From the NCBI GenBank assembly GCA_003136355.1, contig PLED01000034.1:15131-49512 (forward strand): a stretch of 34,382 bases of DNA. Reading direction: 5' to 3'. A program made the position numbers and the translations under genes. The notes beneath the pieces are model-generated. The model did not search any database and had not been told where the DNA came from. It was given only the letters and a program-made list of their open reading frames with translations. How positions within the stretch are numbered: position 1 is the first letter of the stretch; each line of letters begins with the position of its first letter. The stretch is from Vulcanimicrobiota bacterium. Its GTDB lineage: Bacteria; Vulcanimicrobiota; Vulcanimicrobiia; Vulcanimicrobiales; Vulcanimicrobiaceae. This document shows, one piece after another, positions 1,425 to 32,542 of the stretch.

Positions 1425-4313
1425 TTACGTTCGGAAGGCGCCGTCGCCGAACAACACCGTGCCCGCCCAAAAGAATGGATGCGTTAGGGCGGGATTCGAC
1501 CCGCGTATCATCTGTATTTTCGCACTTTGAAGTGCGCTCGCCGGCGGTGCCGGTGATGCACCGCTGAGCGCGTGGAAAAACGACGGTATGAACGTTTTCT
1601 GCACGTCATCCAGGACAGTCCAGTCCGTTACTGCGACGGCGGGCGCGCCGGCATACATGAATGCCTGCGTTAAACCTTGCACTCCCTCGCCGGAATTTTC
1701 GGTGCCGCCTCCGCTTTGGCACGCCGAGAGTACGACAAGATCGCTCTGTAAAGAAAGTCCATAGACATCGGACATCGTTAAGTAGCCGTTCCGCTCCGGG
1801 TGCGCCAGCACGAGTGCGGGCTGGTCGAGCTGGCGTATCGTTCCTGGCAAGACCGCATGCGTCGCGAAAAGTACATAGCGGAATTTTGTTAGGTCCAATT
1901 TCAGCAATTCGTCGCGCGTCGCGGACTCGCCGGTGTACACCGCGCCCGGTTCCGCGCCGAGCTCGGTCGCCACAGTGTTTGCTTCTTCTTCCGCGCCGCC
2001 AAGCGGAGGAAATCCACCGTTTGCGCCGCGCGATGTCAAGTGAGAAACAACCGCTGCGCTTTGCGCGTCCCGTGGTGCGGCCGAGGAAAATGCGGGATTA
2101 GCGAAGGCCAGCAGCGGCACGCGCTGTTCCGGGCGGCGCTTTTCGAGCCCGGTTCGCAGTGCGCTAAGGGCCGATGTTGAGGAAAGATACGACACGGCGT
2201 GATCTTCGATGAAGTATCGCTGCGGCGAAACGCCCGTTACGAGTGCCTCGAACGGCACGTGGTAGAGCGAGCCCGACGGAATGATGAACACCGTTGATGC
2301 GCCGCGCAACATCGCGTCGGTAACCGGCGGAAAGAGCGCGCGATACAAATCGTTCGAAGCCACTGCAAACTCCGGAAGATTTGCGACAGCAGCATCGTCC
2401 ACATAGCGCAGGCTTTTGCCTTCGTCGACATCGCGCTCTATCTGTAGCGGACCGTCGAGCATCGCCGCGACTTTTGCATCGAGCGCTTTTGCGCGCAACG
2501 GTAGATGCACCAAATGGAACGCGCTCGGGGTCACGATCCAGAGATCGGTCGTGCCGCGAAGCGTCGCGAACACGGCTACCGCTTCGTTTTGTCCCAGAAG
2601 CGCCTGCAGCGCGCCGACCTCCACCGGCTGCGGATGCTGCAGCGCATAGTACGCCTTATAATGCGATTTAATGTAAGCATCCAATTGCTGTTGCGCCTGC
2701 TGCGCCTTTAACACGGCCGCGTCCGCGGCCCTCGTGTCCGTGTGCTGTTGCGAAGCGCTCGACAATGCGGCCTGGGCATCATCGGTCTGCTTCGCGAGCA
2801 ACGCTTCTGTGTCGATGATTTGCTGCGGAACGCCGGAAAAGGAATGCGTTCCGCTCTGCGAGATCTGCTCGAGCGTTATCCGGCCCTGGCGGCGTTCGAA
2901 AACGCGAAACGCCTTGCGATCCCACCCTTGCCCGGGCAACGCCTTGTCGAGCAAGTCCAGGTAAGAGAGGTAATCGTCGTATACATACAGCGCGCCGCTG
3001 AAAAACGATTGCCTTGCCGATTTGTCGGAAAGCTCGCTGCGGACGTGCTCGATGTCGTCTAACGCGGCGTCATAGTTTTTAACCGCGCCGCTGATGTCGT
3101 TCAGGCTCGCGCTCGTAGCCGCAACGATGCTATACGATTTCCACATCGCCATCTTATATTTTTGATGCAGCGCCAGACCTTCGCGGCCCGTCTGCAGCGA
3201 CGCGCGATATGCGCCGGCGTGGTATTGCGCAATCGCGAGATTATCGAGCGCTATCCCAAGATCCATTTGATCGTAGGCTTTCCGCAAATACGCGATGGCC
3301 TTCTGATAAGACGTAATGGCCTCGCCCACGCGACCCATATCGTCCAAAAGGTTTCCCAGCGACGAATTGATCGCGGCGCCCAAGCGATCGTCGTGCGTAC
3401 TCTTCGCCAATGCGGCGGCTTCTTTATACGAGGCGAGCGCGGCCTGGCGTTGATTCAGATAATCCTGTGCGGTGCCCAGATTATGGAGGTCAGCGATAAT
3501 CGCATCCTTCTGTTTGAGTTGGCGGTCAATCTTCAGGGCGTCCCGATAAAACTGCACTGCCTGTCCCAGGTCATTGAGGTCTTCGCTTACGTCACCGAGA
3601 TGTCTGAGTGCCTGCGCTCCCGACGCAAGCGCGTGGTGATTCGCATCGATCTTCAGCGCTTGCGCGAACGCAAGCTGCGCATCTTCGTAGCCGCCGTGCT
3701 GCTCGGCGACTTGTCCCATCTCTTGAAGGTCGCCGTCTTGCGATTGCCAGTCGCCCGCTCGCGCGCGCAAGTCAACCGCCCGCGCGAAAAGGTCCAGCGC
3801 AGAGGAATACTCCCTGACGCGCACGGCCAAGCGCGCGTACATCTCGAGATCCTCCGCTTGCGCGCGAGTGTCATTGTTTGCCTTGTCGACAATATATGCG
3901 CGTTTGATGTCCGCGAATTCGCTCGGAATGTGCTGGATGGCCTCATCCGTGTACAGCAGATGTAAGGCGTTGCTTTGAAGATGCGGTGCGCGCGCGTCGC
4001 CGGCTAGCGCAGCAGCCCGCTTTGCGTTCGCGATGGCGGCGAGTGGATGCTGGGTCGCATTCTCAGATCGCGCAAGCAGTACGTAGAAGCGTGCCTCATC
4101 GTAGCGGTCTCCCAGATCGTGCGCGCGTTTGATTGCCCTGCCCGCGATTCGCGCCGCTACAGTCGCGCTACCTTTGGAAAGCGCGCGGTCCGCGCTTTGA
4201 TACGTTCGCGCAAGGTCGGCGCGAGGTGCCGGATCGGCCAACGTGCGAACGCCGCCGCTCCCGCAAGCTGCGGCCACAGTCAACGCGACAATGAACGTTC
4301 GGCGTATGCGCAT
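1425..4313 (-). CDS. Exported TPR-CHAT domain protein (caspase-like peptidase)
   Basis: A 962-residue protein with an N-terminal export signal (MRIRRTFIVALTVAAAC) that may be a lipobox with Cys17. Tetratricopeptide repeats lie at roughly residues 60-430, a helical Gln/Ala-rich linker at about 495-555, and a CHAT domain at about 570-955. The CHAT caspase-like dyad is intact: His819 in FATHAV and Cys865 in LSACQSGGG. CHAT proteins belong to the caspase/separase clan and usually cleave a partner protein; TPRs usually bind that partner. The ATG at 4313 overlaps the upstream stop as TGATG, which favours it over an in-frame ATG 42 codons earlier inside the neighbour. It is the last gene of a four-gene operon with a CHASE2 protein. 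Export of a CHAT protein is unusual. Substrate unknown. Confidence 0.9.
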   Translation of the reverse strand: MRIRRTFIVALTVAAACGSGGVRTLADPAPRADLARTYQSADRALSKGSATVAARIAGRAIKRAHDLGDRYDEARFYVLLARSENATQHPLAAIANAKRAAALAGDARAPHLQSNALHLLYTDEAIQHIPSEFADIKRAYIVDKANNDTRAQAEDLEMYARLAVRVREYSSALDLFARAVDLRARAGDWQSQDGDLQEMGQVAEQHGGYEDAQLAFAQALKIDANHHALASGAQALRHLGDVSEDLNDLGQAVQFYRDALKIDRQLKQKDAIIADLHNLGTAQDYLNQRQAALASYKEAAALAKSTHDDRLGAAINSSLGNLLDDMGRVGEAITSYQKAIAYLRKAYDQMDLGIALDNLAIAQYHAGAYRASLQTGREGLALHQKYKMAMWKSYSIVAATSASLNDISGAVKNYDAALDDIEHVRSELSDKSARQSFFSGALYVYDDYLSYLDLLDKALPGQGWDRKAFRVFERRQGRITLEQISQSGTHSFSGVPQQIIDTEALLAKQTDDAQAALSSASQQHTDTRAADAAVLKAQQAQQQLDAYIKSHYKAYYALQHPQPVEVGALQALLGQNEAVAVFATLRGTTDLWIVTPSAFHLVHLPLRAKALDAKVAAMLDGPLQIERDVDEGKSLRYVDDAAVANLPEFAVASNDLYRALFPPVTDAMLRGASTVFIIPSGSLYHVPFEALVTGVSPQRYFIEDHAVSYLSSTSALSALRTGLEKRRPEQRVPLLAFANPAFSSAAPRDAQSAAVVSHLTSRGANGGFPPLGGAEEEANTVATELGAEPGAVYTGESATRDELLKLDLTKFRYVLFATHAVLPGTIRQLDQPALVLAHPERNGYLTMSDVYGLSLQSDLVVLSACQSGGGTENSGEGVQGLTQAFMYAGAPAVAVTDWTVLDDVQKTFIPSFFHALSGASPAPPASALQSAKIQMIRGSNPALTHPFFWAGTVLFGDGAFRT

Positions 4314-5236
4314 CAGCCTTCCGTTAGAAGGTAACGCAGCTGTGGCACTTGTTCGGTATCGTCGGGAAGCGGCGCGAGCTCTTGGTACGCCGCAAGCCGC
4401 CACTGGTTGCCTTGGCTCTTGAGCAGCGATGCGCGCCAAACCGCTCGAACGTGCGCGGGAATCTGCGGGTCGTCAAGCGCTTGGAGCACTTGCGGCGTCA
4501 GCTTGGGCAGCGAGGTACTGCTGATCACGCGAAACGTTAGCGGTGCGGTCGCCGCTCCGGTTGCATCGGCCACTTGCACCCGGTAAGAGCCGGGATTGAC
4601 ATGCAGATTCACAAACCGCGCTTCGCTCGCGCCGGTCACCGGATCGGTTTTTACCTGCACCGCCGTCGCGATTTGCGCGCCCTGCGCATTCTCCAGTGTC
4701 GCTTTGAACGGAGCGGTACCGTTGAGCCACGGAACCGAAAGCGCGCCGTTCGTTACCGGCGTGAGCTGTTCGACGTTTTCCAGTATCGCAAGCGCGGGCT
4801 TTCTTGCGCCCATTGAAATGTTCGATTCAGTTTCTGCGCTGTAATAGTGATCTTGCGCGGTGCGCAGCACCGATGAGACGGAGTTGAGAATGCTGCGCAC
4901 AACCGCCGGGATTCCGCCGCCGTCCGCCGCGGCGCGCGAGCCGCAGCGGCCCTCCGCCGATCCGACGCAATACGGCGAATGCGCGGCGTCGACCACAACA
5001 CTTTTCCCCGCAACGTACAGCGTGATCGTTAATTGGCGGCCCTTGTCGGCGGCTTTCAGAATGCTCACGCGATCGCCGTTCTCAAGCGCGTGCGCCGCTC
5101 CCACGCCGGGAACGCCGTTGATCGCATATGCCGAAGGCGGCCCGTTGATGTCGACAACCCAGCCGATTACCGGTGTCGCGGCCCGCGCGACGCCAAACCC
5201 GGCAGCTAACAGCAGAACTGCGGTTGCAAATCGCAT
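4313..5236 (-). CDS. Exported protein of unknown function, possible FecR-like N-terminal domain
   Basis: A 307-residue protein with a clear signal peptide (MRFATAVLLLAAGFGVARA-A). Residues about 45-80 (ENGDRVSIL followed by beta-rich sequence) resemble the start of FecR-like domains (GDRV followed by short strands), but the match is weak. Residues about 160-240 look like an immunoglobulin-like beta sandwich (LNVNPGSYRVQV-type strand turn). The C-terminal 65 residues are helical with the pattern ALDDPQIPAHVRAVWRASLL. Its TAATG start overlaps the CHASE2 stop and its TGA overlaps the TPR-CHAT start, so production is tied to both. Two cysteines (in YCVGSAEGRC) could form a disulfide outside the cytoplasm. 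I do not recognise a specific family; it could be a periplasmic adaptor or ligand of the CHASE2 and CHAT proteins. Confidence 0.8.
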   Translation of the reverse strand: MRFATAVLLLAAGFGVARAATPVIGWVVDINGPPSAYAINGVPGVGAAHALENGDRVSILKAADKGRQLTITLYVAGKSVVVDAAHSPYCVGSAEGRCGSRAAADGGGIPAVVRSILNSVSSVLRTAQDHYYSAETESNISMGARKPALAILENVEQLTPVTNGALSVPWLNGTAPFKATLENAQGAQIATAVQVKTDPVTGASEARFVNLHVNPGSYRVQVADATGAATAPLTFRVISSTSLPKLTPQVLQALDDPQIPAHVRAVWRASLLKSQGNQWRLAAYQELAPLPDDTEQVPQLRYLLTEG

Positions 5237-6579
5237 TACAGACTCTCCTTCACTCCATGATACGCGCGGTGCGCGATTTCGTGCAAGAAAATACCGGCCA
5301 GCGGAACGATAGAATCGACGAAGATTCCAAGATTAAACGCTGCGAGGCCCAACGTGATGGCGGCGAGCGCGATCAGCGTCGCGGTCAGCGCCAGCGCCCA
5401 TCCGGTTGCCAGTGTCGCAAGCAACGCGGATAAGCATACAACAAGCGCAATTTCCAAGGCGTAGTGCGTTACGGGCGAAGGCTCGCGCAGTGAATCTCCC
5501 GCCAACAATGAGTTCAATTCGTTCATCTGAACCACCACGCCGGGAATCCGGCCGAGCGGCGTGTAGTGGTAATCGTTGCCGAAGGTGCTGCCGATAAACA
5601 CGATTTTGTCCGCAAACAAACCGCGCGCGTTCTCGGCGCGGCCGGCGGCGATGGCTTCGGCGCCGATCTCGGGAACGTCGGCCGCCTCACCATTCCCGCG
5701 CCACCCGATGCGCATGAAGAAACGCCGCTCGAACGCTTCTTCCGTCAATTCCACATGTACCGTCCGTGCATTGAAAGGATCGCGCAAATCAATCGACGTG
5801 CGCGCAAGCGGCGTATCCATCTTCCCCGGCGTCGAGCTGCACGCGCGTGCGAGCGGCGCGATCGCCGAGCGTTCTCGCTGCAGCGCCGTCGCATCGTTTC
5901 CGGCGAGCACCAGTAATGGTGCCGACGGAATTGCCGTTCCCGGGCCGGGCCCGCGGCACGTCGTTTCCCACAGCCGCCAACTGCGTGTCGTTGCGTCGGT
6001 CGAGTCGGTCTCCACCGTGCCGAAGCGAACGTTGCCGTGCAAATTCCACGGATTTTCCGGCGTCGTCGCGATCGCCGGATCTAAAAGCGTCGGCAGCGCT
6101 TGCGAAGCTCTGACGTTTGCGCGGCTGCTCACAAACACGCCGTCGAGCGTGCGAATGGGCCGCGCGAAAATCAGTGGCGCGCAAGCGGGCGCGCATCCTA
6201 CGCCGCGGTTATAGGCGCCCACGAAACGCACGAGTTCGGAATCGCCGCTCCCCGGCGAACGCTCGCGCAGATCGATGTCGACGACGATAGCCTTCGGCCG
6301 GTTCGCCGCCGCGTACGCGATCAGCCGAGCGAGTTTATCGCGCGGCGTAATCTCTTGAGCCCGCCATGCCTGCGCCGCTTGACGATCGATGTCGATTAGG
6401 ATCAGCGGCGACGCCGGACGGGCGGCCGCCAGGCGCGCCATCTGCCAATTGACGATCGCGTCGCGCGCATGAACCACGAGCGAATTCTGTTGAACCACGG
6501 GCGCCTGCATCACGAAGACCAGGATGACGCCGATGACAAGGTTCGTCGCAAATCTGATCCGCTTTTCGCGAGCGGTCAC
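5236..6579 (-). CDS. CHASE2 domain membrane protein without output domain
   Basis: A 447-residue membrane protein. A first membrane helix lies at about residues 10-28, then an extracytoplasmic CHASE2 sensor domain at about 35-345, with the family signatures LILIDIDRQ, KAIVVDID and KIVFIGSTFGND...TPLGRIPGVVVQMN. Three membrane helices follow at about 365-435, and a very short cytoplasmic tail. CHASE2 proteins normally carry a cyclase, kinase or other output domain after these helices; here nothing follows. The start is GTG at 6579, overlapping the upstream stop as GTGA; an ATG 74 codons earlier would lie entirely inside the neighbouring gene and encodes non-hydrophobic, Arg/His-rich sequence. 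The TAA overlaps the next start. The signal is probably passed to the operon partners instead of a fused domain. Confidence 0.88.
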   Translation of the reverse strand: MTAREKRIRFATNLVIGVILVFVMQAPVVQQNSLVVHARDAIVNWQMARLAAARPASPLILIDIDRQAAQAWRAQEITPRDKLARLIAYAAANRPKAIVVDIDLRERSPGSGDSELVRFVGAYNRGVGCAPACAPLIFARPIRTLDGVFVSSRANVRASQALPTLLDPAIATTPENPWNLHGNVRFGTVETDSTDATTRSWRLWETTCRGPGPGTAIPSAPLLVLAGNDATALQRERSAIAPLARACSSTPGKMDTPLARTSIDLRDPFNARTVHVELTEEAFERRFFMRIGWRGNGEAADVPEIGAEAIAAGRAENARGLFADKIVFIGSTFGNDYHYTPLGRIPGVVVQMNELNSLLAGDSLREPSPVTHYALEIALVVCLSALLATLATGWALALTATLIALAAITLGLAAFNLGIFVDSIVPLAGIFLHEIAHRAYHGVKESL

Positions 6580-7475
6580 CCTTTCGGGCCGCTCGGTTGC
6601 GCGTTCTGGCACAAGGCCGACGTCGCCGCAAAGAGCGTGCCGATAGCTGCGACTTGGCCCTGCGTCGACGTGTTCGTGCCCCAGTGCTTTCCGAAGGCCA
6701 CCGAACTGGCGCTCGCGAGCGCGCCGATGAATCCGCCGTAACGGCAGAAAAACCGGTTTGTGTTTGGCGGATAGGTGAGTCCGCTTACGATGGCCGCGCA
6801 CGAAGCAAGCCGGCCGGAAAGATCGTCGTACAGATCGTAGTTGGTGTACGCAAACTGCGTCAACATCGCGGAAAGGTCCGCGGGCGAAGCGCTTACCGTC
6901 TGCTGTACCAGTTTGTCAACGGCGCCCGTCAGTTTGACGCCCTGATCGGACTCATACGCGAATGAGTTGCACGCCGTCCGCCACGAATAATCGAACGACG
7001 CCTGATGCTCCTTCTGGCGAGTATTCCATGCGTAGACCGAGAGGAGAAAGTCGCACATGCGCAAGCGGTAGACTTGCGCGCGAATGTCGCGGTACGTCTG
7101 CCGGATCTCGTTCGCAATCGCGTCGGGCGATTTAACGCCGCGCACTTCGCTCAATCGCGCGCTCAAACTGTTCTGACCCGGCGCGGCTGCGCAAATCGGA
7201 ACGTATGTCGGCACGTCGCCCAGCAGTTGACTGCAGCGCACGCCGTTGAGCCCCAGGAAAAACATGAGGTTCGGAAACGATATGTCTGAGTGCCCCGATA
7301 GTACGGAGTAGTCGCGGGGCTGCGCGTAGATCGGCGCTTGATCGACGGCGTCGGATTTTGCTCCGCATGCCGTGGTCGCCGGCGTTGCCGGCTGCGCGTT
7401 TTGCTGTGCCGTGGCGATGCCGCACGGCAATAGAGCGACACAAGCGATAAGTAGCAAACATGCGCTGCGCGTCAT
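6576..7475 (-). CDS. Exported Cys-rich protein, first gene of CHASE2/CHAT operon
   Basis: A 299-residue protein with a strong signal peptide (MTRSACLLLIACVALLPCGIATAQ). The mature part holds about eight cysteines (for example GVRCSQ, RMCDFLL, RTACNSFAY, SCAAIV, RFFCRYGG, LCQN), consistent with disulfides in the periplasm. It is mostly helical, with a glycine/alanine/serine-rich helix near residues 250-290 that might contact the membrane. No family is recognised. The ATG at 7475 is chosen because the frame upstream runs through the antisense of a tRNA gene. Its TGA overlaps the CHASE2 GTG start, placing it at the head of the operon. Promoter elements are not obvious in the 134 nt before it, which contain a hairpin at 7565-7590. 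Confidence 0.82.
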   Translation of the reverse strand: MTRSACLLLIACVALLPCGIATAQQNAQPATPATTACGAKSDAVDQAPIYAQPRDYSVLSGHSDISFPNLMFFLGLNGVRCSQLLGDVPTYVPICAAAPGQNSLSARLSEVRGVKSPDAIANEIRQTYRDIRAQVYRLRMCDFLLSVYAWNTRQKEHQASFDYSWRTACNSFAYESDQGVKLTGAVDKLVQQTVSASPADLSAMLTQFAYTNYDLYDDLSGRLASCAAIVSGLTYPPNTNRFFCRYGGFIGALASASSVAFGKHWGTNTSTQGQVAAIGTLFAATSALCQNAQPSGPKG

Positions 7476-7564
7476 AAAACGGAATACAACCCCCGTCGGA
7501 AGGCTCGCATCGGGCTTCTCCGGTCTCGCGTGACCGCCCTGTGGATCAAAGGATGGAAATGCGG

Positions 7565-7590
7565 CGAGCCCCAGAAATATCGGGGGCTCG
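7565..7590. other. Inverted repeat (8-bp perfect hairpin)
   Basis: CGAGCCCC at 7565-7572 pairs perfectly with GGGGCTCG at 7583-7590 around a 10-nt loop. On the plus strand it is followed by TTTCTTG, weakly terminator-like, and it stands 19 nt before tRNA-Val(GAC). On the minus strand it lies in the leader of the CHASE2/CHAT operon, about 90 nt before its first ATG. It could be a terminator for unseen plus-strand transcription or a leader structure. Confidence 0.45.
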
Positions 7591-7609
7591 TTTCTTGTCG
7601 CGGAAACGT

Positions 7610-7684
7610 GGGCGGTTAGCTCAGTGGGAGAGCACTTCCCTGACACGGAAGGGGTCATTGGTTCAATCCCAATACCGCCCACCA
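7610..7684 (+). tRNA. tRNA-Val (anticodon GAC)
   Basis: A complete cloverleaf. Acceptor stem GGGCGGT pairs with ACCGCCC, the D-arm is GCTC/GAGC, and the anticodon stem CTTCC/GGAAG carries loop CTGACAC with anticodon GAC for GUC (and GUU) valine. The T-arm is ATTGG-TTCAATC-CCAAT. Discriminator A at 7681 is followed by an encoded CCA at 7682-7684. It is the second valine tRNA of the window, on the opposite strand from the CAC one. Confidence 0.96.
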
Positions 7685-7785
7685 TTTCAATCTAAAATTA
7701 TCGTCAACGCGCCTTTTCGGATTTCGAGTCGAGCACCGGCCGCCGCGTGTCACCCGCGCAAGATTGTAGATCGATCCTAAAATAC

Positions 7786-9930: not shown

Positions 9931-11346
9931 TCATGTTATCGAAAATGCCGCGACCTTTCCGGGCTTATCGATCACGATGCTCAGCGCAACCGTGCGGTGA
10001 GTGAATACGGCGCGGTAGACGTAATAGAGCCCGGCTTGAACATAGACTTTCGACACGAACTGCAAGCGTTCAAAACGGCCCAAAGGCGCAAACTGTTTAA
10101 CCATGGCTTCATCCGTGGGCAGCTGGATGCTTATCAGCGGCTCGAATTGAGAGCGATCCAGATGACCCGATGATGCCCCCGCGAGCAGAGCGGCCGCGCG
10201 GCTTGTCACGGCCGGTGCGGGATCGTAGTCGAATTGCGGCCCCAGGTTGCGTTCGCGCGAATAGCTCGGAACGTAGGCCTTGAGCGCCGCGCGAACGATC
10301 GGCGTCGTGTCGTACGAACCATTTCCTAAAACGACGACGGCAAAGTCTTTCGCCGGTACCATTTCGTTGTCGGCGCGAAATCCGGCCATGCCGCCATGGT
10401 GCGAAACGATGCGAAGCTGGCGGCCCTCGGCAACGAATACGCCTTGCCCGTCTCGCAACCCCGGCGCCAAAGTTGCATAAGGAACGGTTTGCTGCATCTC
10501 TTCAAAGAACGCGCGCGGTAGCACTTTGCCCGCCATCAGTGCGATATCGAAGCGCGCCAGATCCGCGACATTTGAAAAAATGTCGCCGTCGGCATAGTAC
10601 CAGCTCCAATTACCCGGGTCACCTTTGAATGCTTGCGCGGGTGCATTTCCGGCCACGGGAGCGGCCGAGGTGCGCGACATCCCGAGTGGCGCGAAAATAT
10701 TGCGCTTCTCGTATTCGGCGAGAGCTAACCCGCTGATTCGCTCGACGATTTGCCCCAGCAAGACGTAGCCCGTATTGCTGTAGTTCCAGTCCGTCCCGGG
10801 TTGAAAATCGAGCGGCCGCGCGGCGATGCTTGCCAGAATCGCGGACGGCGTCGTCGTTGCGGCGTTCTTGCCAAGTGCGACGGCTTCGTCAAGGTAATTC
10901 GGAATGCCGCTGGTATGATTCATGAGTTGCCGGATCGTCATCGAAGCGAAGTTCGTATACTCCGGAACATATTTCGAAACAGGATCGCTTAACGACAACT
11001 GCCCTCGCGAAGCAAGTTGCATGATGCTGACGGCCGTAAACATCTTGGTAATCGAGCCTATCGCAAACGTGGTGCCGGTGCCGGCATTTCCGAAAGCGCG
11101 AGCATAGACGAGCCGGCCGTTTACGACCACACCGACTGCTACGGCTGCAGTATGCTTGCTTTCGAGCTGTGCCTTGAGCGCATCCGGTATCGCCGGGTCG
11201 AATGTTTGCGCGATTGCGATACCGGCCGCCGCAACGCAGAGCGCCGCCGTCGCACCCAACCCGGCCCCGCGCCCGAATCGGCTACGGCGCCGCGGGTAAC
11301 TGCAGTCCGCTGATTTTTCCGTCTTTGTCGAGGACAAAGATTTCAT
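9931..11346 (-). CDS. Beta-lactamase-fold serine hydrolase with extra C-terminal domain
   Basis: A member of the class C beta-lactamase / penicillin-binding family (PF00144), exported. With the ATG at 11346 it has 471 residues: Ser98 and Lys101 of SxxK in GSITK, Tyr189-Ser-Asn191 in WNYSNTGY, and HHGGMAG as the third motif. Such proteins are often D-Ala-D-Ala peptidases or esterases, not resistance enzymes. The last about 85 residues form a separate domain homologous to the whole mature part of the neighbouring 11282-11704 product. The start is uncertain: the ATG at 11346 overlaps that neighbour by 65 nt but supplies an Arg-rich n-region (RRRSRFGRG); a TTG at 11259 would avoid overlap but leaves an uncharged signal. 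Its stop is followed at once by a repeat copy. Confidence 0.85.
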   Translation of the reverse strand: MKSLSSTKTEKSADCSYPRRRSRFGRGAGLGATAALCVAAAGIAIAQTFDPAIPDALKAQLESKHTAAVAVGVVVNGRLVYARAFGNAGTGTTFAIGSITKMFTAVSIMQLASRGQLSLSDPVSKYVPEYTNFASMTIRQLMNHTSGIPNYLDEAVALGKNAATTTPSAILASIAARPLDFQPGTDWNYSNTGYVLLGQIVERISGLALAEYEKRNIFAPLGMSRTSAAPVAGNAPAQAFKGDPGNWSWYYADGDIFSNVADLARFDIALMAGKVLPRAFFEEMQQTVPYATLAPGLRDGQGVFVAEGRQLRIVSHHGGMAGFRADNEMVPAKDFAVVVLGNGSYDTTPIVRAALKAYVPSYSRERNLGPQFDYDPAPAVTSRAAALLAGASSGHLDRSQFEPLISIQLPTDEAMVKQFAPLGRFERLQFVSKVYVQAGLYYVYRAVFTHRTVALSIVIDKPGKVAAFSIT

Positions 11347-11704
11347 TGCAGGCATTCGCCTTAAACACCACGTGAAAAACGTAGGCGGTGTTATCTCCCA
11401 GTATCGTTTGTTTTCCGACGTAGGTGAAAGCGACCGGATCGCCCCAAGGCCCAAATGTGCTCGAGATTTGCTTTGTCATAGTGGGAGTAAGCAGCGAGTC
11501 CATTTTCGAGTCGAGTTGTGTCCGGTCGATATCTCCGGTCTGAATCCGGTGCAGCCACTCTTTAGCGCGCGCCGTGATCGCGGGATCCGCCGAGGGCGCG
11601 GGCGCCGGCGCGGGGCTCGCAAGTTTTGTCTGAGCTAGCACTTCACTCGGCAAGACCACGCAAAACGCGGCCGCGATCATGAAGATGGCGTCTCTAAAAT
11701 TCAT
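11282..11704 (-). CDS. Small exported protein, stand-alone copy of the neighbour's C-terminal domain
   Basis: A 140-residue protein with a signal peptide (ending VLAQ) and a Pro/Ala linker. The mature domain (about residues 45-138) parallels the last 85 residues of the adjacent beta-lactamase-fold protein: TGDIDRTQL versus SGHLDRSQF, YVFHVVF versus YVYRAVF, and FVLDKDGKISG versus IVIDKPGKVAA. It may be a NTF2-like or SnoaL-like small fold, but no named family is recognised. The ATG at 11704 is preceded by AGAGG at good spacing, so it is preferred to a GTG two codons earlier. Its end overlaps or lies just before the lactamase start, and the pair is probably co-translated. Confidence 0.8.
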   Translation of the reverse strand: MNFRDAIFMIAAAFCVVLPSEVLAQTKLASPAPAPAPSADPAITARAKEWLHRIQTGDIDRTQLDSKMDSLLTPTMTKQISSTFGPWGDPVAFTYVGKQTILGDNTAYVFHVVFKANACNEIFVLDKDGKISGLQLPAAP

Positions 11705-18105: not shown

Positions 18106-18369
18106 ATGACACTCCTACAACACCCCGAAATGGAATTCGACGCCCAGAAGATGCTCGATCGCTTCTTGTCTGAAGCGCCGTTTATGCGGGAATTGCCGTT
18201 CACGCGCATCTCCTTCCTCACGCCGTTCTGTGACGTCTACGAGAAAGACGGAAAGTATTTCGTCGAACTCTCGCTCCGAGCTGCATTGGAACGAAAAGAG
18301 AGGGGCGGGAAACCGCCCCTCTCTTACGTCATGGTGCGCCTGCAGTTATTGCACTATTTTTACGATTAA
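18106..18369 (+). pseudogene. Truncated Hsp20 (small heat-shock protein) gene
   Basis: The first about 57 residues match the N-terminal arm and first strand of Hsp20/alpha-crystallin proteins: LPFTRISFLTPFCDVYEKDGKYFVELSL corresponds to the usual P-x-CDVYEKDGKYxVEmaLPG. The reading frame then leaves the family at about position 18276 and runs through the neighbouring terminator hairpin to a stop at 18369. The alpha-crystallin core and the C-terminal IxI tail are missing, so it is almost certainly non-functional. The sequence 17722-18105 upstream holds only the two fragments listed separately and no intact gene. Confidence 0.75.
18294..18323 (-). terminator. Rho-independent terminator of the cupredoxin operon
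   Basis: GAGAGGGGCGG (18298-18308) pairs perfectly over 11 bp with 18313-18323 around a 4-nt loop. Read on the minus strand the stem is followed by TTTT (complement of 18294-18297). It stands 22 nt after the stop of the last cupredoxin gene, the expected place for its terminator. Confidence 0.88.
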
Positions 18370-18702
18370 CGTCATCTGCGCGTGCCCCTGGCCGCACGGC
18401 ATCGTGCAGTGCAGCACGTATGTACCCGGCTTGTGCGGAGTGAATGTGACCGCCGTCGCATTGGGCATGGCGAACGTATTGGCGATCCCTAGCGCAGCCG
18501 ACGCTATTCCGTGCACGCCTTCCTTTGAGATGAAGTGCAGTGTCGTTACCTGATTCACGTGCACGGTAATCGTTCCGGGCGTAAATTTCCAGTTGGAAGC
18601 CGTGATGTTAATGCTTGCCGGCCGTGCAGGACCGGCGGAAGCCGGGACCGCGAAAGCGCCCGAGAGCAGCAACATCGCCAGCACGTAAGCGGCGTTTCTC
18701 AT
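18346..18702 (-). CDS. Exported CuA-type cupredoxin (paralog 1)
   Basis: A 118-residue exported cupredoxin with a signal peptide to about residue 23. NWKFTPGTITV, GVHGI and the ending GTYVLHCTMPCGQGHAQM form a cytochrome-oxidase-subunit-II-type soluble domain. The ligand set of a binuclear CuA centre is complete: His64, Cys99, Cys103, His107 and Met110 (CxxxCGxxHxxM). There is no membrane anchor and no oxidase subunit nearby. CuA proteins carry electrons in the periplasm; a role as electron carrier or copper donor is inferred. ATG at 18702 overlaps the cytochrome stop (ATGA), which sets the start and couples the two. A terminator follows 22 nt after the stop. Confidence 0.9.
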   Translation of the reverse strand: MRNAAYVLAMLLLSGAFAVPASAGPARPASINITASNWKFTPGTITVHVNQVTTLHFISKEGVHGIASAALGIANTFAMPNATAVTFTPHKPGTYVLHCTMPCGQGHAQMTLIVKIVQ

Positions 18703-19886
18703 TGCGCGATCGGGGTGGTCCACCAGAGCAGCCAGCGCCACGTCGGCCCGCCGCTTTGCGTCGTGGAGTTCGCGCCTAAGCCTGCTTCAAGGTACGCGTG
18801 CAGATAGGGCATGCGTGGCACGTTGAATCCTAAATCGATGTTTTGAAAGTGCATGCGGTTTCCGAGCCCGTCGTTGGTGTACTCGTCCCGGAACGCAAGG
18901 ATCGCATTGTGGTCAAACAGCGGCTCGTAGACTTCCGCGGTCAAGGCGCTGCTGCGTGCGCTCGGCAGCATATTGCCATCTCCGTCGAAGCCGGGCTTGC
19001 TGTCGTTTCCGATTTGATAGATCCCAAGAACGCCTGGTATGCCGCTGGACTGTGGATCGCGTTGCAAATACCCCGCAAATGAACTATAGCGATCGGCTTC
19101 GCCGCTCGAGATGATGTAGCTTCCCATGCTGCCGAACGCGCCCACCTCCAGCGGTTGATCGGGATGCGCGCTGGCAACTTTCCATTGGAACGTCTTGTCG
19201 GTGCCCGGCACCGTATCGAAGTCTTGGCTCGAAACGAAACCGTTGCCGCTCAGTAGCCACGCCGCTTCGGCGTCGAGCGCGCCATGGACGTACGCGATTT
19301 TGGTGCCCCACCGGTTGCCGTCGATTTGATATGCGTGCTCGCCGACGGTAATCGCAGGCGTGGCGAAGCTTGAGATATCCGACCATTGACTGAACGGCGA
19401 CGGACCCGGCGCCTCGATCTTTCCGATGAAGAGATGTCCGTCTTTGTGGAAAAGATTATTGTAGGTTACCCACGCTGTGTCGAGCGATCCGCCGCCGGAG
19501 TCGTTTTGCAACAGCCATTGTTGAACGTGAAACGTCCAATCGGGCGCAAAATATCCGGCGGAATGCAGCGCCAGGTTCCCAAAAGAGCTCGTGTGCGTGG
19601 GCGTAATATCGCTCACGCCGCCGGTGCTGTCACCGTTGACCTGCTCGCCAATCCAGATCGGCGAAACGGTCTTCAGAACATCGCGATTCAGCGAAGCGTA
19701 GCCGGTGCGTTGCACGTACCGGCCGTACGCGTTGAGTGCGGGAACCATCGTATGACACGTGCTGCACTGCACTCCGTATGCCTTAGCGAAAATCGGCATC
19801 GCTTGCGCGGTCATTCCGGTACCCGCGACCAACGCAGCGGCAAGAAAGACCGAGGAGAAGACACGGAATGCAGTGCGCGCAATCAT
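18699..19886 (-). CDS. Monoheme c-type cytochrome with porin-like barrel
   Basis: A 395-residue exported protein. After a signal peptide (about 1-29) comes AYGVQCSTCHTMVPALNAYGRY, with one covalent heme site (Cys41, Cys44, His45). The remaining about 340 residues are amphipathic strands with Gly, Asn, Trp and Tyr (SAGYFAPDWTFHVQQWLL, SSFAGYLQRD, LHAYLEAGLGA), in the manner of an outer-membrane barrel, although no porin family is recognised. One heme in front of a barrel suggests electron delivery to or through the outer membrane, not an enzyme. ATG at 19886 overlaps the upstream cupredoxin stop (ATGA), and its own stop overlaps the next cupredoxin. An in-frame ATG 16 codons earlier lies inside the neighbour and is rejected. 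Confidence 0.85.
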   Translation of the reverse strand: MIARTAFRVFSSVFLAAALVAGTGMTAQAMPIFAKAYGVQCSTCHTMVPALNAYGRYVQRTGYASLNRDVLKTVSPIWIGEQVNGDSTGGVSDITPTHTSSFGNLALHSAGYFAPDWTFHVQQWLLQNDSGGGSLDTAWVTYNNLFHKDGHLFIGKIEAPGPSPFSQWSDISSFATPAITVGEHAYQIDGNRWGTKIAYVHGALDAEAAWLLSGNGFVSSQDFDTVPGTDKTFQWKVASAHPDQPLEVGAFGSMGSYIISSGEADRYSSFAGYLQRDPQSSGIPGVLGIYQIGNDSKPGFDGDGNMLPSARSSALTAEVYEPLFDHNAILAFRDEYTNDGLGNRMHFQNIDLGFNVPRMPYLHAYLEAGLGANSTTQSGGPTWRWLLWWTTPIAQ

Positions 19887-20242
19887 TTTTGAACCTTGAT
19901 GGTCAGCATCATATTTGGATGACCGGCGCCACAAATGATCGTGCAGTGAACGATATACGTACCGGCTTTACCCGGCGTAAACGTCACAGTGACAAACTTG
20001 TTCGGCATGATAATCGTATCGCGAATGCCCAGCTCGTCGGACTTAAATCCGTGCACGCCCTCGCTCGAAGTTAATCGCAGCGTGGTGGGTTCTCCCGGCG
20101 GCACTGTAATGGTATTCGGCGTAAATTTCCAATTTGAAGCGACGATGTCGATGCTAGGATGCGCTGCGCTCGGCAGCCACGCGGCGCCGAGGGCTCCGCA
20201 AAATACTGCGGCGGAAAATATGGCGAATGTGAACATTTTCAT
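19883..20242 (-). CDS. Exported CuA-type cupredoxin (paralog 2)
   Basis: A 119-residue exported cupredoxin, first gene of a three-gene operon. After the signal peptide (about 1-27) it shows SNWKFTPNTITVPPGE, EGVHGF and GTYIVHCTIICGAGHPNM. The CuA ligand set is complete: His64, Cys100, Cys104, His108, Met111. It is a clear paralog of the third gene, sharing SNWKFTP, TITV, EGVHG, LGI and GTYxxHC, so the operon carries a gene duplication on either side of a cytochrome. It is likely an electron carrier in the periplasm. The stop overlaps the cytochrome start by ATGA. GGTGAT upstream of ATG 20242 is a weak ribosome site. Confidence 0.9.
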   Translation of the reverse strand: MKMFTFAIFSAAVFCGALGAAWLPSAAHPSIDIVASNWKFTPNTITVPPGEPTTLRLTSSEGVHGFKSDELGIRDTIIMPNKFVTVTFTPGKAGTYIVHCTIICGAGHPNMMLTIKVQK

Positions 20243-20320: not shown

Positions 20321-20857
20321 TTAGTCTATGATGATCTCGATCTTGCCGCCGGGCGGCTTGCGCCGGACTGCTTCCCACAGCGCGTCGCGGAATTCTCGCG
20401 CGAGCGTCTGCGGGTCGCCTTCGATAATGTGCACGTTTTTTGAGTCGGCGGCGCCCCGCACGGCGCCGACCTGGGCCGCCAGCAGCTCGGTGATATCGAT
20501 CCTTTGCGGCGGTTTTGCAATCTCGGGATCGGCGAGCGGTGCCGCCTTCAAGTCCACCAGGAGCGCGCCCGCAGTACGCAGCGAATCCCGGATATCGCGC
20601 AGCCGCGCGGGAGTGATCTCCAGTACGCCGTCCACCATCGCTTCCAGATTGGCCTGCGCGATCGAGAGCACGTTACCCAATTCGTGGCGACCGGTCTTCT
20701 GCGCGCGCTCGCGTCCGGTCTGATTCTCTTGCAACTGCGTAATCAGCAGAGCGAGCCGCTCCGCGATCGATCCTTCAGCGTGCTCGAGCGCACTCTTAGC
20801 GCCCTGCAAATCGCCGAGCGCACAAAGATCGAGCGCATGAATAATGGCGTCGTCCAT
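20321..20857 (-). CDS. Truncated histidine-kinase-like protein lacking the ATP site
   Basis: A 178-residue protein without membrane segments. RHELGNVLSIAQANLEAMVDG resembles the phospho-acceptor helix of HisKA domains (HELxNxLS). The next part (IDITELLAAQVGAV...SKNVHI...) resembles the start of a HATPase domain, ending with FRDALWEAVRRKPPGGKIEIIID. The N-box asparagine, DxGxG and later glycine boxes are all missing, so it should not bind ATP. The histidine phospho-acceptor may remain as a phosphotransfer or phosphatase partner. The ATG overlaps the stop of the OmpR regulator (TGATG), tying the two. It is either a degraded kinase or a genuine short phosphotransfer protein; I cannot tell which. 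Confidence 0.78.
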   Translation of the reverse strand: MDDAIIHALDLCALGDLQGAKSALEHAEGSIAERLALLITQLQENQTGRERAQKTGRHELGNVLSIAQANLEAMVDGVLEITPARLRDIRDSLRTAGALLVDLKAAPLADPEIAKPPQRIDITELLAAQVGAVRGAADSKNVHIIEGDPQTLAREFRDALWEAVRRKPPGGKIEIIID

Positions 20858-21540
20858 CAGTCTTTGCGCAATTTGTAGCCGACGCCGTACACCGTCACGA
20901 TGTATGCCGGATCATCCGGATTAGGCTCAACCTTATGCCGTAAGTTGTTTATATGGCGATCCAGTGTACGTTCGAAGATCGTGCCGTCGTCGTGCACCAA
21001 ATCCAGCAGTTGGCCTCGCGTGAGCACTTGACCGGCATTTTGCGCCAGCACGGCGAGGATACGAAACTCCGCCGGCGTCACCGGAATCGCGCGTCCCGAC
21101 AGCCGAACTTCGTGAGCGCCGGGATCGATCTGCAGATCTTTGATTTGGATCGTCGGTTCGCCATTCTGAATGCCCGGCTGCTTTGTCGACCGCCGCAAGA
21201 CCGCGCGCACTCGCGCGACCACTTCGCGCGGCGAGAACGGCTTTACGATATAGTCGTCGGCGCCCAGCTCCAGGCCGACCACCCGGTCCACTTCATCGCT
21301 GCGCGCCGTTAACATGATCGTCGGAATGCGCTGCTGTTTGTTCGCCTGTTTGAGGATGTCGAGGCCGCTCCCGTCGGGGAGCGTGATATCCAGAATCATG
21401 ATGTCCGGCCGCTGTTTCTCCAAACTGGCCAGCGCCGAAGCCACGTCTAAGCATACCGTGGTCTCAAAAGATTCGCGCTGTAGATAGGCGCTAAGGACTT
21501 CTCCGATCTGCGGCTCATCGTCGACGATGAGCACTACCAC
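20857..21540 (-). CDS. OmpR-family response regulator
   Basis: A 227-residue DNA-binding regulator. The receiver domain (1-115) has the acidic pair Asp7/Asp8, phospho-acceptor Asp51 in LDITLPDGSG, Thr78 and Lys100 in YIVKPF. The C-terminal winged helix (about 128-225) has the family motifs LTPAEFRILAVLAQNAGQVLTR and IFERTLDRHINNLRHKVEP, ending with VYGVGYKL. It binds target promoters as a phospho-dimer. The start is GTG at 21540; a second GTG two codons later is possible. It overlaps the truncated kinase by one base. Its immediate upstream region is the interspersed hairpin repeat, so its promoter must lie within or beyond that repeat. Confidence 0.94.
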   Translation of the reverse strand: MVVLIVDDEPQIGEVLSAYLQRESFETTVCLDVASALASLEKQRPDIMILDITLPDGSGLDILKQANKQQRIPTIMLTARSDEVDRVVGLELGADDYIVKPFSPREVVARVRAVLRRSTKQPGIQNGEPTIQIKDLQIDPGAHEVRLSGRAIPVTPAEFRILAVLAQNAGQVLTRGQLLDLVHDDGTIFERTLDRHINNLRHKVEPNPDDPAYIVTVYGVGYKLRKD

Positions 21541-21550
21541 AAGCTTGTCA

Positions 21551-21626
21551 TCCTGCGCCCAACATTGTCATCCTGAGCCTGTCGAAGGACCCCGAGTAGC
21601 GTGCGGAAGCACGCGTATCGAGGGGC
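21551..21626. repeat. Interspersed hairpin repeat, copy 1
   Basis: ATTGTCATCCTGAGCC begins at 21564 and continues TGTCGAAGGACCCCGAG to 21596. A hairpin GCGTGC-GGAA-GCACGC at 21599-21614 and ATCGAGGGGC then follow. A copy with identical 33-nt lead-in lies at 28156. A partial TTGTCATCCTG is repeated just before, at about 21545. The rest of 21541-21751 up to the next gene shows no gene. Confidence 0.85.
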
Positions 21627-21751
21627 GCATTGCCACAGATCGACCATTCCCACAGGTTAGCGAGCCCCTCTGAAGAGCCTGGGAGCGTGCCTTCTCCACT
21701 CCTTCCTAATGTGGTCCTTGCCGCTTCTCGGCCATCGGCGAGAATCGAACG

Positions 21752-28095: not shown

Positions 28096-28142
28096 TTGTT
28101 GTGACGGCTTCTAGTTGTTGTCCCGGCTTCTAGTTGTTGTCA
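28086..28142 (+). repeat. Threefold 19-nt tandem repeat spanning the ggt stop codon
   Basis: Three identical copies of CGGCTTCTAGTTGTTGT start at 28086, 28105 and 28124, each followed by a variable dinucleotide (GA, CC, CA). The first copy contains the ggt stop (TTC-TAG), so the gene's end has been copied twice downstream. Together with the repeat at 28156 it fills the space to the convergent gene at 28237. Confidence 0.92.
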
Positions 28143-28155
28143 CGGCGAGCCAACG

Positions 28156-28219
28156 ATTGTCATCCTGAGCCTGTCGAAGGACCCCGAGCAGCGCACGTAA
28201 GTGCGCGAGTCGAGGGGCG
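28156..28219. repeat. Interspersed hairpin repeat, copy 2
   Basis: The 33-nt lead-in (28156-28188) is identical to that at 21564-21596. It is followed by CA and a hairpin GCGCAC-GTAA-GTGCGC (28191-28206), then GAGTCGAGGGGC. The stem is fully paired although both arms differ from the copy at 21599-21614. It separates convergent genes. Confidence 0.9.
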
Positions 28220-28236
28220 AGCGAGCGTGAGCTAAG

Positions 28237-30168: not shown

Positions 30169-31569
30169 CTACTGTATTTTTCGAGCCGGCTGATCGACAC
30201 CATTTTGGTGGAGTACAAGCCCTGTGACATTGCCGGCGGCATCCAACTGAAAGATAATCTGCGCGTCAACCACTCGCAAGAAAAACGCCGAGGGAGACGA
30301 TGGGTAGAGGCGTAGCGCCGGTTGGCCCGTAGCTTGCGCGTAAAGATCGCCGCCTCGCATCGAGATTGCGATCTGGAAGGTCGGCGTCATTTGATAGACG
30401 CCGGTATATCGCTGTAGCGTAGCGCGCGGTACGGCTAGAGCCGGCGGCAACGGTTTTGGAGCGGCTACCGCTCGCGGGGCGAGTAAATGGATGGCGACGT
30501 TGTCGACGTTCATGTCCGCGACATTGGACAATACGACGACACCGAAACCTTTGGCGCGGTTGAAGCCGATAAATGCATGGTAGCCGCCGGTCTCGCCATT
30601 ATGCCATGTGATCCCGGATGCCGTGTTAGTCTGCCATACCAATCCAATCTGCATAACGCCATTTAGGCCGGTCGGATAGCGCGGCTTCTGCGCGAATGCC
30701 ATGGCCTTTTCCAGTCGAGTCGAGGCCGTCTGTGCCATGTTCGCCCTCAGATAGATCAACATATCGCGCATCGTTGAGTCGATCGCGCCGGCGGCGAAGA
30801 GTTCACCGAACGTCCAGGGTCCCTGCGCAGTCCCGTCAACGGTCTGTCCGGGGGCCAACAACGCGCGCATTTGCCGGCTTAGTGAAAGCGCTGTGTGCCG
30901 CATTCCAAGCGGTTTGAGAATGCGTTGCAGCACGAGTTGCGCGTACGGTTCGTTCGCCCGGTTCGCCAAAAGATCGCCGAGCAAACCGACGCCGAGATTC
31001 GAATACTCATACTGACCGCCCGGCGCGCGCGTAAGTGAATAGCGTGAAAGAAAGTCGTCGAGCATAGGCGTCGAGTAGGAAGCGTACGGATCAGCCCGGT
31101 TGGATAGGTCGAGATTACTCGGCAGTCGTGGCAAACCCGAGTTTTGCTCGGCAAGATTAAACAGTGTGATGGGAGTTCCGGCGAACGACGGTGCGCGAAT
31201 TCCGGCTGGCAGGTACCGCTGAATCGGATCGTTCACCCGCACTTCACCCTGCATCGCCATCAACGCAAGCAGCGTTGCCGTGAACGTCTTGGTCACCGAC
31301 CCAATCTGGAACACCGTATCTTCATTTAGCGCCGGTCCGCTCGCGCCAAGATCGCCCGCCTTATATACAGAGATCGTTTTCCCGTTTACAACGCCCGCGA
31401 TGATGCCCACACCGGGTTTGCCACTGACGAACGCGTTCAGTGCCGCCTGGGTGTCACGTGGATCTGCCGGACCAGAGAAATCCGCAGCGCACGCCGGAAG
31501 CTGCGCGATCAATCCGACGCTCACAGCGACCGCTATGATAAATCTCTTGAACAAACTCGAGTTCTTCAT
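30169..31569 (-). CDS. Beta-lactamase-fold serine hydrolase (second)
   Basis: A 466-residue exported member of the class C beta-lactamase / D-Ala-D-Ala peptidase family. A signal peptide of about 28 residues (MKNSSLFKRFIIAVAVSVGLIAQLPACA) precedes the domain. Ser91 and Lys94 of SxxK (GSVTK), Tyr189-Ser190-Asn191 (YSN) and HNGETGG are present, with QRYTGVYQMTP and a beta-strand-rich C-terminal domain typical of DUF3471. This C-terminal domain differs from that of the other lactamase-fold gene. Function could be peptidoglycan or ester cleavage. ATG 31569 is chosen; the frame beyond it is a translation of interspersed repeats (SFDKLRMT-type peptide) and is not real. Confidence 0.9.
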   Translation of the reverse strand: MKNSSLFKRFIIAVAVSVGLIAQLPACAADFSGPADPRDTQAALNAFVSGKPGVGIIAGVVNGKTISVYKAGDLGASGPALNEDTVFQIGSVTKTFTATLLALMAMQGEVRVNDPIQRYLPAGIRAPSFAGTPITLFNLAEQNSGLPRLPSNLDLSNRADPYASYSTPMLDDFLSRYSLTRAPGGQYEYSNLGVGLLGDLLANRANEPYAQLVLQRILKPLGMRHTALSLSRQMRALLAPGQTVDGTAQGPWTFGELFAAGAIDSTMRDMLIYLRANMAQTASTRLEKAMAFAQKPRYPTGLNGVMQIGLVWQTNTASGITWHNGETGGYHAFIGFNRAKGFGVVVLSNVADMNVDNVAIHLLAPRAVAAPKPLPPALAVPRATLQRYTGVYQMTPTFQIAISMRGGDLYAQATGQPALRLYPSSPSAFFLRVVDAQIIFQLDAAGNVTGLVLHQNGVDQPARKIQ

Positions 31570-31598
31570 GACCCGGGATTTCGGCAATCGAACAATGG

Positions 31599-31619
31599 TG
31601 TCATGGTGAGCGGGCGCCA
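31599..31619. repeat. 21-nt interspersed repeat, perfect copy
   Basis: The sequence TGTCATGGTGAGC followed by GGGCGCCA is identical to 12688-12708 and 34360-34380. It lies 30 nt before the ATG of the lactamase-fold gene on its upstream side. Confidence 0.85.
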
Positions 31620-31635
31620 CTAGGCCCGGTCGGGA

Positions 31636-31685
31636 TGTCATCCTGAGCTTGTCGAAGGACACGGGCGAGCGTTGTCGAGGCCCGC
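31636..31685. repeat. Interspersed TGTCATCCTGAG repeat, partial copy
   Basis: TGTCATCCTGAGCTTGTCGA at 31636, then AGGACACGGGCGAGC and GTTGTCGAGGCCCG. It resembles the lead-in and tail of the copies at 21564 and 28156 but has no perfect internal hairpin. It lies in the divergent gap between the lactamase-fold gene and the CPBP gene. Confidence 0.75.
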
Positions 31686-31714
31686 GTGGCTGGGTCGCGA
31701 ACGAACCGCCTTGA

Positions 31715-32542
31715 ATGAAAAACTTCCTGGCATTCCCGCTGACGCGCCTCATCCTGATCGTCGTGCTGTTCAGCGCGGCCGCCTACGCACTGACGCCGCT
31801 GGCGCTGCGCATGCACTCGCTCATCCTCGGCGAAGCGATGCTGCTGGCGATTCTGCTCGCCGCCACGCTCGTCGTCGAATACTTCTGCGCGCAACAAACG
31901 CTAGCCGACGTCGGCTTCCCCTCAACCGGCGCGATTGGTGGACTCTTCGGCGGCCTGCTCGTAGGCGCGGTCCTCTTCTCCGTCGTCATCGCCGTGCTCA
32001 CACTGACGCACTGCTACACCGCGAGCTTCCAGTCGTGGAACCCGCTGCTCCCGGCACTCGCGGTCTTTCTATTCGTTGCGCTCTTCGAAGAGCTGCTGTT
32101 TCGCGGCGTGCTCTTCCGTTTAATAGAGAAAATGACCGGAACGTGGATCGCGCTCGTGCTCTCCGCCGTGCTCTTCGGCGCAATTCACATCCGCAATCCA
32201 CACGCCAGCATCTTCTCCAGCCTGGCGATCGCGCTGGAAGCCGGCGTGTTACTCGCGCTTGCCTATGTGCTCACCCGCTCGCTGTGGTTCGCAATCGGCA
32301 TACACTGGGGCTGGAATCTTTTTGAAGGCTCGATCTTCGGCACACAAGTCTCGGGCGGCGAATTCACCGCTACCGTCTTTCATTCGAAGATGGATGGCCC
32401 AACCTGGTTGACCGGCGGAAGTTTCGGTCCTGAAGCAGGCGTCGTCGCGCTCATCGTTTGCGTGGCCGCCGCACTCATCGTCGGCGCGCTCGTAATCCGA
32501 CGCCGTCGCATCATCTCACCAATGTGGCTGAAATCTACTTGA
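31715..32542 (+). CDS. CPBP-family intramembrane metalloprotease
   Basis: A 275-residue membrane protein with about seven or eight hydrophobic segments. The CPBP (Rce1/abortive-infection-like) motifs are in order: Glu125-Glu126 and Arg130 in FEELLFRG, His158 in LFGAIHI, and His197 plus Asn201 in IHWGWN. These residues bind the catalytic metal or water in this family, so it is likely active as an inner-membrane protease or a related prenyl-protein peptidase. It is divergent from the second lactamase-fold gene, with the repeat cluster between them. Its end overlaps the GTG start of the next gene by 19 nt. Confidence 0.9.
   Translation: MKNFLAFPLTRLILIVVLFSAAAYALTPLALRMHSLILGEAMLLAILLAATLVVEYFCAQQTLADVGFPSTGAIGGLFGGLLVGAVLFSVVIAVLTLTHCYTASFQSWNPLLPALAVFLFVALFEELLFRGVLFRLIEKMTGTWIALVLSAVLFGAIHIRNPHASIFSSLAIALEAGVLLALAYVLTRSLWFAIGIHWGWNLFEGSIFGTQVSGGEFTATVFHSKMDGPTWLTGGSFGPEAGVVALIVCVAAALIVGALVIRRRRIISPMWLKST

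Follow-up and report, generated by a model that had tools for sequence, protein, structure and literature searches.

Two CuA-type cupredoxins and the Cyc2-like monoheme cytochrome between them, found in a metagenome-assembled genome of Candidatus Eremiobacterota (2.52 Mb, 111 contigs, 96.6% complete), are on balance probably what remains of an electron-uptake system, in which electrons would pass from an external donor through the Cyc2-like heme and a CuA cupredoxin to a ba3-type oxidase. Coordinates are those of the window, the whole stretch of 34,382 nucleotides that was analyzed.

Gene order of the cluster

The cluster is encoded on the minus strand in the order response regulator, 178-aa protein, P0003, P0001, and P0002. 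Cupredoxin 1 (P0003, 19883..20242, 119 aa) begins with a signal peptide or anchor and lies immediately 5' of the Cyc2-like cytochrome P0001 (18699..19886), a probable outer-membrane porin fusion of 395 aa when its start is placed at the ATG that yields a signal peptide, and cupredoxin 2 (P0002, 18346..18702, 118 aa) follows. The original prediction that both cupredoxin genes overlap the cytochrome gene was borne out by the ORF coordinates, with 4-base ATGA overlaps at 19883-19886 (P0003/P0001) and 18699-18702 (P0001/P0002), and translational coupling of the three genes is supported at this level. On the 5' side, the 178-aa protein (20321..20857, minus strand), which has no Pfam match, overlaps an OmpR-type response regulator (20857..21540, minus strand; Response_reg 7e-28, Trans_reg_C 1.5e-23); the regulator is syntenic in the sister genome G006, where the 178-aa protein also holds the same position (synteny with locus L051). 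Elsewhere in the window are a TPR-CHAT protein with a CHASE2-domain protein and two Pfam-less proteins as its neighbors (1425-7685, minus strand), together with two serine β-lactamase-family proteins of ∼510-530 aa (9931-11454 and 30169-31752).

The heme domain of P0001 and its kinship with Cyc2

P0001 contains a single CXXCH motif, CSTCH, in agreement with the one heme originally proposed, followed by TMVPAL; its N-terminal part reads AMPIFAKAYGVQCSTCHTMVPALNAYGR. The protein belongs to no family in Pfam or NCBIfam, and its profile gave no match in the PDB up to E = 1. Cyc2 has been defined by the sequence AXPXFAR[Q/K][T/Y] before a single CXXCH and PXL after it (PMC8406198). The single CXXCH, the downstream PXL, and a length above the 365-aa minimum are all found in P0001, and the stretch before the heme, AMPIFAKAY, agrees at A, P, F, A, and Y and departs at two positions (R to K and Q/K to A), which in the core family are occupied by K, Q, or E and then by A or S. 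As these two residues of the strict motif differ, P0001 is Cyc2-like and not Cyc2 by definition. Comparison with a reference of six plasmid homologues of Cyc2 (Caballeronia, Methylocystis, Paraburkholderia, Ideonella, A. ferrooxidans, and Polymorphobacter) revealed that the heme domains are homologous (hhalign 98.3%, E 2.3e-14, 36% identity over 44 columns), and beyond the heme domain the profile comparison (0.5%) gave no sign that the sequence is related to the Cyc2 barrel.

P0001 is likely to be an outer-membrane β-barrel, an assignment made from the kinship of its heme domain with Cyc2, whose definition includes a barrel of 16 strands (PMC8406198). An AF2 model built from seven sequences had a pLDDT of 34 with ∼18 low-confidence strands, too poor a model to count as evidence. 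The family average gave 20 amphipathic strands compared with 15.1 ± 2.0 in shuffled sequences, a weak excess, the single-sequence form of this test missing barrel controls as well. A porin family was absent from a Pfam scan of 31 relatives, and two canonical Cyc2 proteins were likewise without a Pfam match. Mean-field couplings from 86 sequences (Neff 51) were discarded, being dominated by gapped columns. A third Cyc2-like subfamily, of 376 aa, is encoded in the same genome two genes 3' of an SCO1 gene (L048, contig C74, 6273-8384).

The cupredoxins carry the CuA ligand set

The ligands of the CuA site are found in P0003 as His64, Cys100, Cys104, His108, and Met111, and the equivalent five residues are found in P0002, so that the full set claimed for both proteins was recovered on alignment with the Thermus ba3 CuA domain. 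Both match Cupredoxin_1, with COX2 scores above or slightly under the cut-off; for P0003 the values are 5e-13 (Cupredoxin_1) and 1e-6 (COX2). The best solved relatives of P0003 by E-value are CuA domains of Thermus ba3 oxidases (E ∼1e-11 to 1e-13), with which all of its ligands align. Among the surveyed loci described below, the N-terminal His is invariant in 68 of 68 cupredoxins that had been picked by the Cys-Cys-His-Met motif, a selection in which this His played no part. A profile built from these 68 matched 102 ORFs in the loci, only two of which lack the motif, and the two ligand Cys residues are present in all aligned copies.

The AF2 model of P0003 (pLDDT 84, core >90) superposes on CuA domains with an r.m.s. 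deviation of 1.3-1.6 Å. Nitrosocyanin and other cupredoxins fit the model about equally well, and the fold alone consequently leaves a dinuclear copper site unproven. By predicted fold together with the His, Cys-x3-Cys, His, and Met ligands, P0003 and P0002 are assigned as CuA-type cupredoxins, which would bind copper as such. Two other assignments were rejected. P0003 was not taken as an oxidase subunit II, having 119 aa, one N-terminal hydrophobic segment, and no COX1 in the window, and a rusticyanin-like, mononuclear blue cupredoxin was set aside on the ligand residues, which include two Cys rather than one. In the sister genome, CoxB is a protein in its own right, 155 aa long. Two genes for SCO1, an assembly factor for CuA, are present in the host genome.

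A linked ba3-type oxidase and two probable deletions

The original prediction noted the lack of an oxidase or N2O reductase nearby, which is true of the window, where no COX1 gene is found, and appears to reflect a lineage-specific deletion, as a ba3-type oxidase occupies this place in the sister genome. The gene order in G006, whose cytochrome is 86% identical to P0001, is CoxB, CoxA, response regulator, 178-aa protein, CuA, cytochrome, CuA, cytochrome, and the linked CoxB resembles that of Thermus ba3 (3.5e-40). When the DNA of the window is aligned with that of G006, the two run collinear through the cluster region apart from two gaps. At the first (21561..21645), 2.4 kb with CoxB and CoxA of G006 are absent, window positions 21628/21645 corresponding to 4011/1605 of L051. 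A dispersed intergenic repeat (starting TTGTCATCCTGAGCCTGTCGAAGGACCCCGAGTAGCG), found at 21561-21628 and 28137-28222 of the window and with 41 matches in the genome, has one copy that coincides with this junction. At the second (about 18283..18352), the missing DNA amounts to ∼3.6 kb and in G006 carries cytochrome 2, two further genes, and the C-terminal end of Hsp20. Residues 2-56 of the truncated Hsp20 (18106..18369, plus strand) match the Hsp20 of G006 with 84% identity (tblastn), the truncated ORF running on into the end of the cupredoxin 2 gene; the intact homologue has an HSP20 Pfam match. Comparison with the sister genome also located a hairpin in this junction, AGAGGGGCGGGAAACCGCCCCTC, identical to one 3' of its Hsp20, which was not among the candidates listed by an intrinsic-terminator scan.

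Because CoxB and CoxA also precede the response regulator in a further genome, G003, which has two units of CuA and cytochrome as well, the simpler reading of both gaps is deletion in the window's lineage, and misassembly of the contig may be an alternative source of them. P0002 shares 66% identity with CuA2 of L041/L051, the second cupredoxin of G006, and 45% with P0003; this identity and the synteny make it the orthologue of the cupredoxin encoded ahead of cytochrome 2 in G006. The flanking cupredoxins would thus be the remains of two CuA-cytochrome units, a tandem array that lost its second cytochrome, and the earlier suggestion that duplication around the cytochrome points to two distinct partners is not upheld.

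The linkage to oxidases extends to other relatives. COX1 lies within the examined stretch at 25 of 62 CuA-linked loci compared with 3 of 23 others, where ∼2.5% would be expected by chance on our own estimate (16-kb stretch, four COX1 genes per genome). Since the linked oxidase was deleted in the window's lineage, electrons would have to go to another oxidase of the genome; none of those in this assembly is a close relative of the lost enzyme (best, 27%). On another contig, C62 (L046), a free-standing CuA cupredoxin (1417-1770) and a small heme-copper oxidase (COX1 5169-6659, COX2 6611-7126) are encoded ∼3.4 kb apart, and the oxidase of C62 is 58% identical to that adjoining a CuA-cytochrome pair in G033.

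Pairing of CuA and cytochrome among relatives

Whether the genes keep company elsewhere was surveyed in 149 genomes of the phylum, taking up to ∼8 kb on each side, which gave 85 core loci, all in the class Eremiobacteria. A CuA cupredoxin adjoins the cytochrome or is fused to it at 62 of these 85. At 55 of 82 testable core loci it lies on the same strand no more than 700 bp upstream, whereas the expectation by chance is ∼0.1% (our own estimate, from seven COX2-family matches in the 2.52-Mb genome).

The two proteins form a single chain at four loci (L054, L055, L056, and L108), with the CuA domain C-terminal and joined through an Ala/Pro-rich linker. Six other loci have a class I cytochrome c fused at the C terminus, recognized by a second heme motif and checked against Pfam for L103. 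Where CuA is lacking, a class I cytochrome c is in most cases fused to the Cyc2-like protein or encoded next to it. A single, fully supported clade consists of all four CuA fusions and two of those with cytochrome c (L103 and L104), and on a quick tree the partner label (CuA, cytochrome c, or neither) changes at least 11 times. Because both kinds of C-terminal fusion occur within one clade, CuA and class I cytochrome c look like interchangeable periplasmic electron acceptors.

Two further loci of the host genome were observed in the survey. At L046 (contig C62, 14413-17600), a Cyc2-like protein of 588 aa ends in a class I cytochrome c, and a multicopper oxidase gene follows directly; the locus is possibly a second electron-route or metal-oxidation cluster. 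L047 (contig C54, 4481-5416) is a relative of the fusions that lacks the whole barrel part; its heme domain spans residues 1-65 and is followed by a linker and a CuA domain out of frame, and then by another, intact CuA cupredoxin.

Proposed electron route and alternatives

In the proposed route, the Cyc2-like heme would sit at the periplasmic mouth of the probable β-barrel and accept single electrons from a soluble external donor, for which we infer Fe(II) as the leading candidate. The cytochrome would hand these electrons to a dedicated small periplasmic CuA cupredoxin, filling the slot that rusticyanin or cytochrome c has in known Cyc2 pathways, and the cupredoxin would in turn feed a ba3-type heme-copper oxidase at its CuA site. 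Gene pairing, translational coupling, ligand set, heme-domain homology, fusions, and oxidase linkage are observed, and the barrel topology, copper loading, donor, and direction of flow are inferred. That these systems form a distinct Eremiobacterota class of outer-membrane electron entry, with CuA, free or C-terminally fused, as the dedicated acceptor and repeatedly swapped with cytochrome c, is a proposition we hold to be evenly poised.

The alternative with the best standing, although still a tentative one, keeps the Cyc2-type uptake and changes the donor to a soluble one-electron reductant other than Fe(II), such as reduced humics, phenolics, or Mn(II); it is a sub-case of the preferred explanation with identical wiring. 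It draws on the two divergent motif residues, on the region after the heme domain, whose sequence shows no recognizable kinship with the Cyc2 barrel, on the unsettled role of distant Cyc2 homologues (PMC8406198), and on the host genome, in which no match to RuBisCO was found. Against this, no other donor is positively supported, and the Cyc2-like gene of an Eremiobacterota MAG from an acid mine has been read as possible Fe(II) oxidation (PMC8357290). The missing RuBisCO match would itself make lithoautotrophic growth on Fe(II) unlikely and an energy supplement more likely.

The direction of flow is not fixed by the sequence, so electrons could also be exported, with the CuA cupredoxin passing respiratory electrons outward through the cytochrome to an external acceptor, a reading with which the lack of a RuBisCO match also agrees. 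We regard such export as improbable: CuA centers in known proteins are high-potential, the linkage to O2-reducing oxidases in many relatives fits uptake better, and the Cyc2 homologues tested so far are Fe(II) oxidizers (PMC8406198).

A little less probable still is that the cluster is a decaying relic that stopped working in this lineage once the oxidase and cytochrome 2 were gone. The two deletions at the locus and the barrel-less paralogue on contig C54 would agree with decay, but all three reading frames are intact, the ATGA couplings are preserved, and dN/dS against the sister genome is 0.075 for P0001, 0.12 for P0003, and 0.21 for P0002. These ratios indicate that purifying selection acts on the three proteins, and the remainder of the cluster is therefore probably still used.

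Copper handling, with a porin for copper entry and cupredoxins as copper carriers in oxidase assembly, is the least probable reading and very unlikely, for although cupredoxins stand beside oxidase genes in many relatives and the host has its SCO1 genes, the full CuA ligand set is maintained, and core relatives keep the heme while the cupredoxin is often replaced by a cytochrome c, even one fused in the same place, which follows the logic of electron transfer. Of the two functions originally offered, the route between outer membrane and periplasm is thus favored by the heme domain, the fusions, and the oxidase linkage, and copper handling gained no positive evidence.

Comparison with known systems

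The uptake system preferred here is closest to Cyc2, the fused outer-membrane cytochrome-porin of A. ferrooxidans and Mariprofundus. P0001 shares with it a signal peptide, a single N-terminal CXXCH within a homologous heme domain, the pattern A-x-P-x-F-A before the heme motif and P-x-L after it, and a length of ∼400 aa. It differs in having FA(K/Q)(A/S)Y where Cyc2 has FAR[Q/K][T/Y] and in a remainder that is not detectably homologous by sequence, and its family differs in the partner, a CuA cupredoxin or a class I cytochrome c.

In A. ferrooxidans, electrons pass from Cyc2 to rusticyanin, then to a cytochrome c and the CuA of the aa3 oxidase (PMC4059628). Like rusticyanin, a small periplasmic copper protein, the CuA cupredoxin would ferry electrons from the outer-membrane cytochrome toward the oxidase; rusticyanin is a mononuclear blue copper protein, whereas the ligands here are those of a dinuclear CuA site (two Cys, two His, and Met), and four relatives carry the CuA domain as a fusion with the cytochrome. 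AcoP of A. ferrooxidans offers another likeness, as an extra single-domain cupredoxin that is oxidase-linked and belongs to an iron-oxidation chain, but its copper site is mononuclear and green, with ligands spaced as C-x6-H-x4-M (PMC4059628), in contrast to the C-x3-C-x3-H-x2-M of the present cupredoxins.

Cyc2-type uptake is already known, as is a Cyc2-like gene in this phylum (PMC8357290). As far as the open-access literature could be consulted, no description was found of a CuA cupredoxin as the partner of a Cyc2-like protein or of a cytochrome-CuA fusion. The recurrent pairing in ∼60 related clusters, some of them fused, suggests an undescribed route from outside the cell to oxygen respiration. 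If correct, Cyc2-type pathways would gain a new kind of periplasmic carrier, and oxidation of Fe(II) or other external donors would become testable in the Eremiobacterota, mostly uncultured bacteria of soils and mine drainage.

Otherwise, CuA is known as an integral component of the reductases for oxygen and N2O. The CuA domains of Thermus thermophilus ba3 subunit II and of N2O reductase share with P0003 the cupredoxin fold and all ligand positions, but P0003 is a free-standing secreted protein of 119 aa. The proposed route would therefore give CuA a new natural setting, coupled, free or fused, to an outer-membrane cytochrome; the fused form would place a heme and a CuA center within one outer-membrane protein, and so provide a single protein in which heme-to-CuA transfer could be measured.
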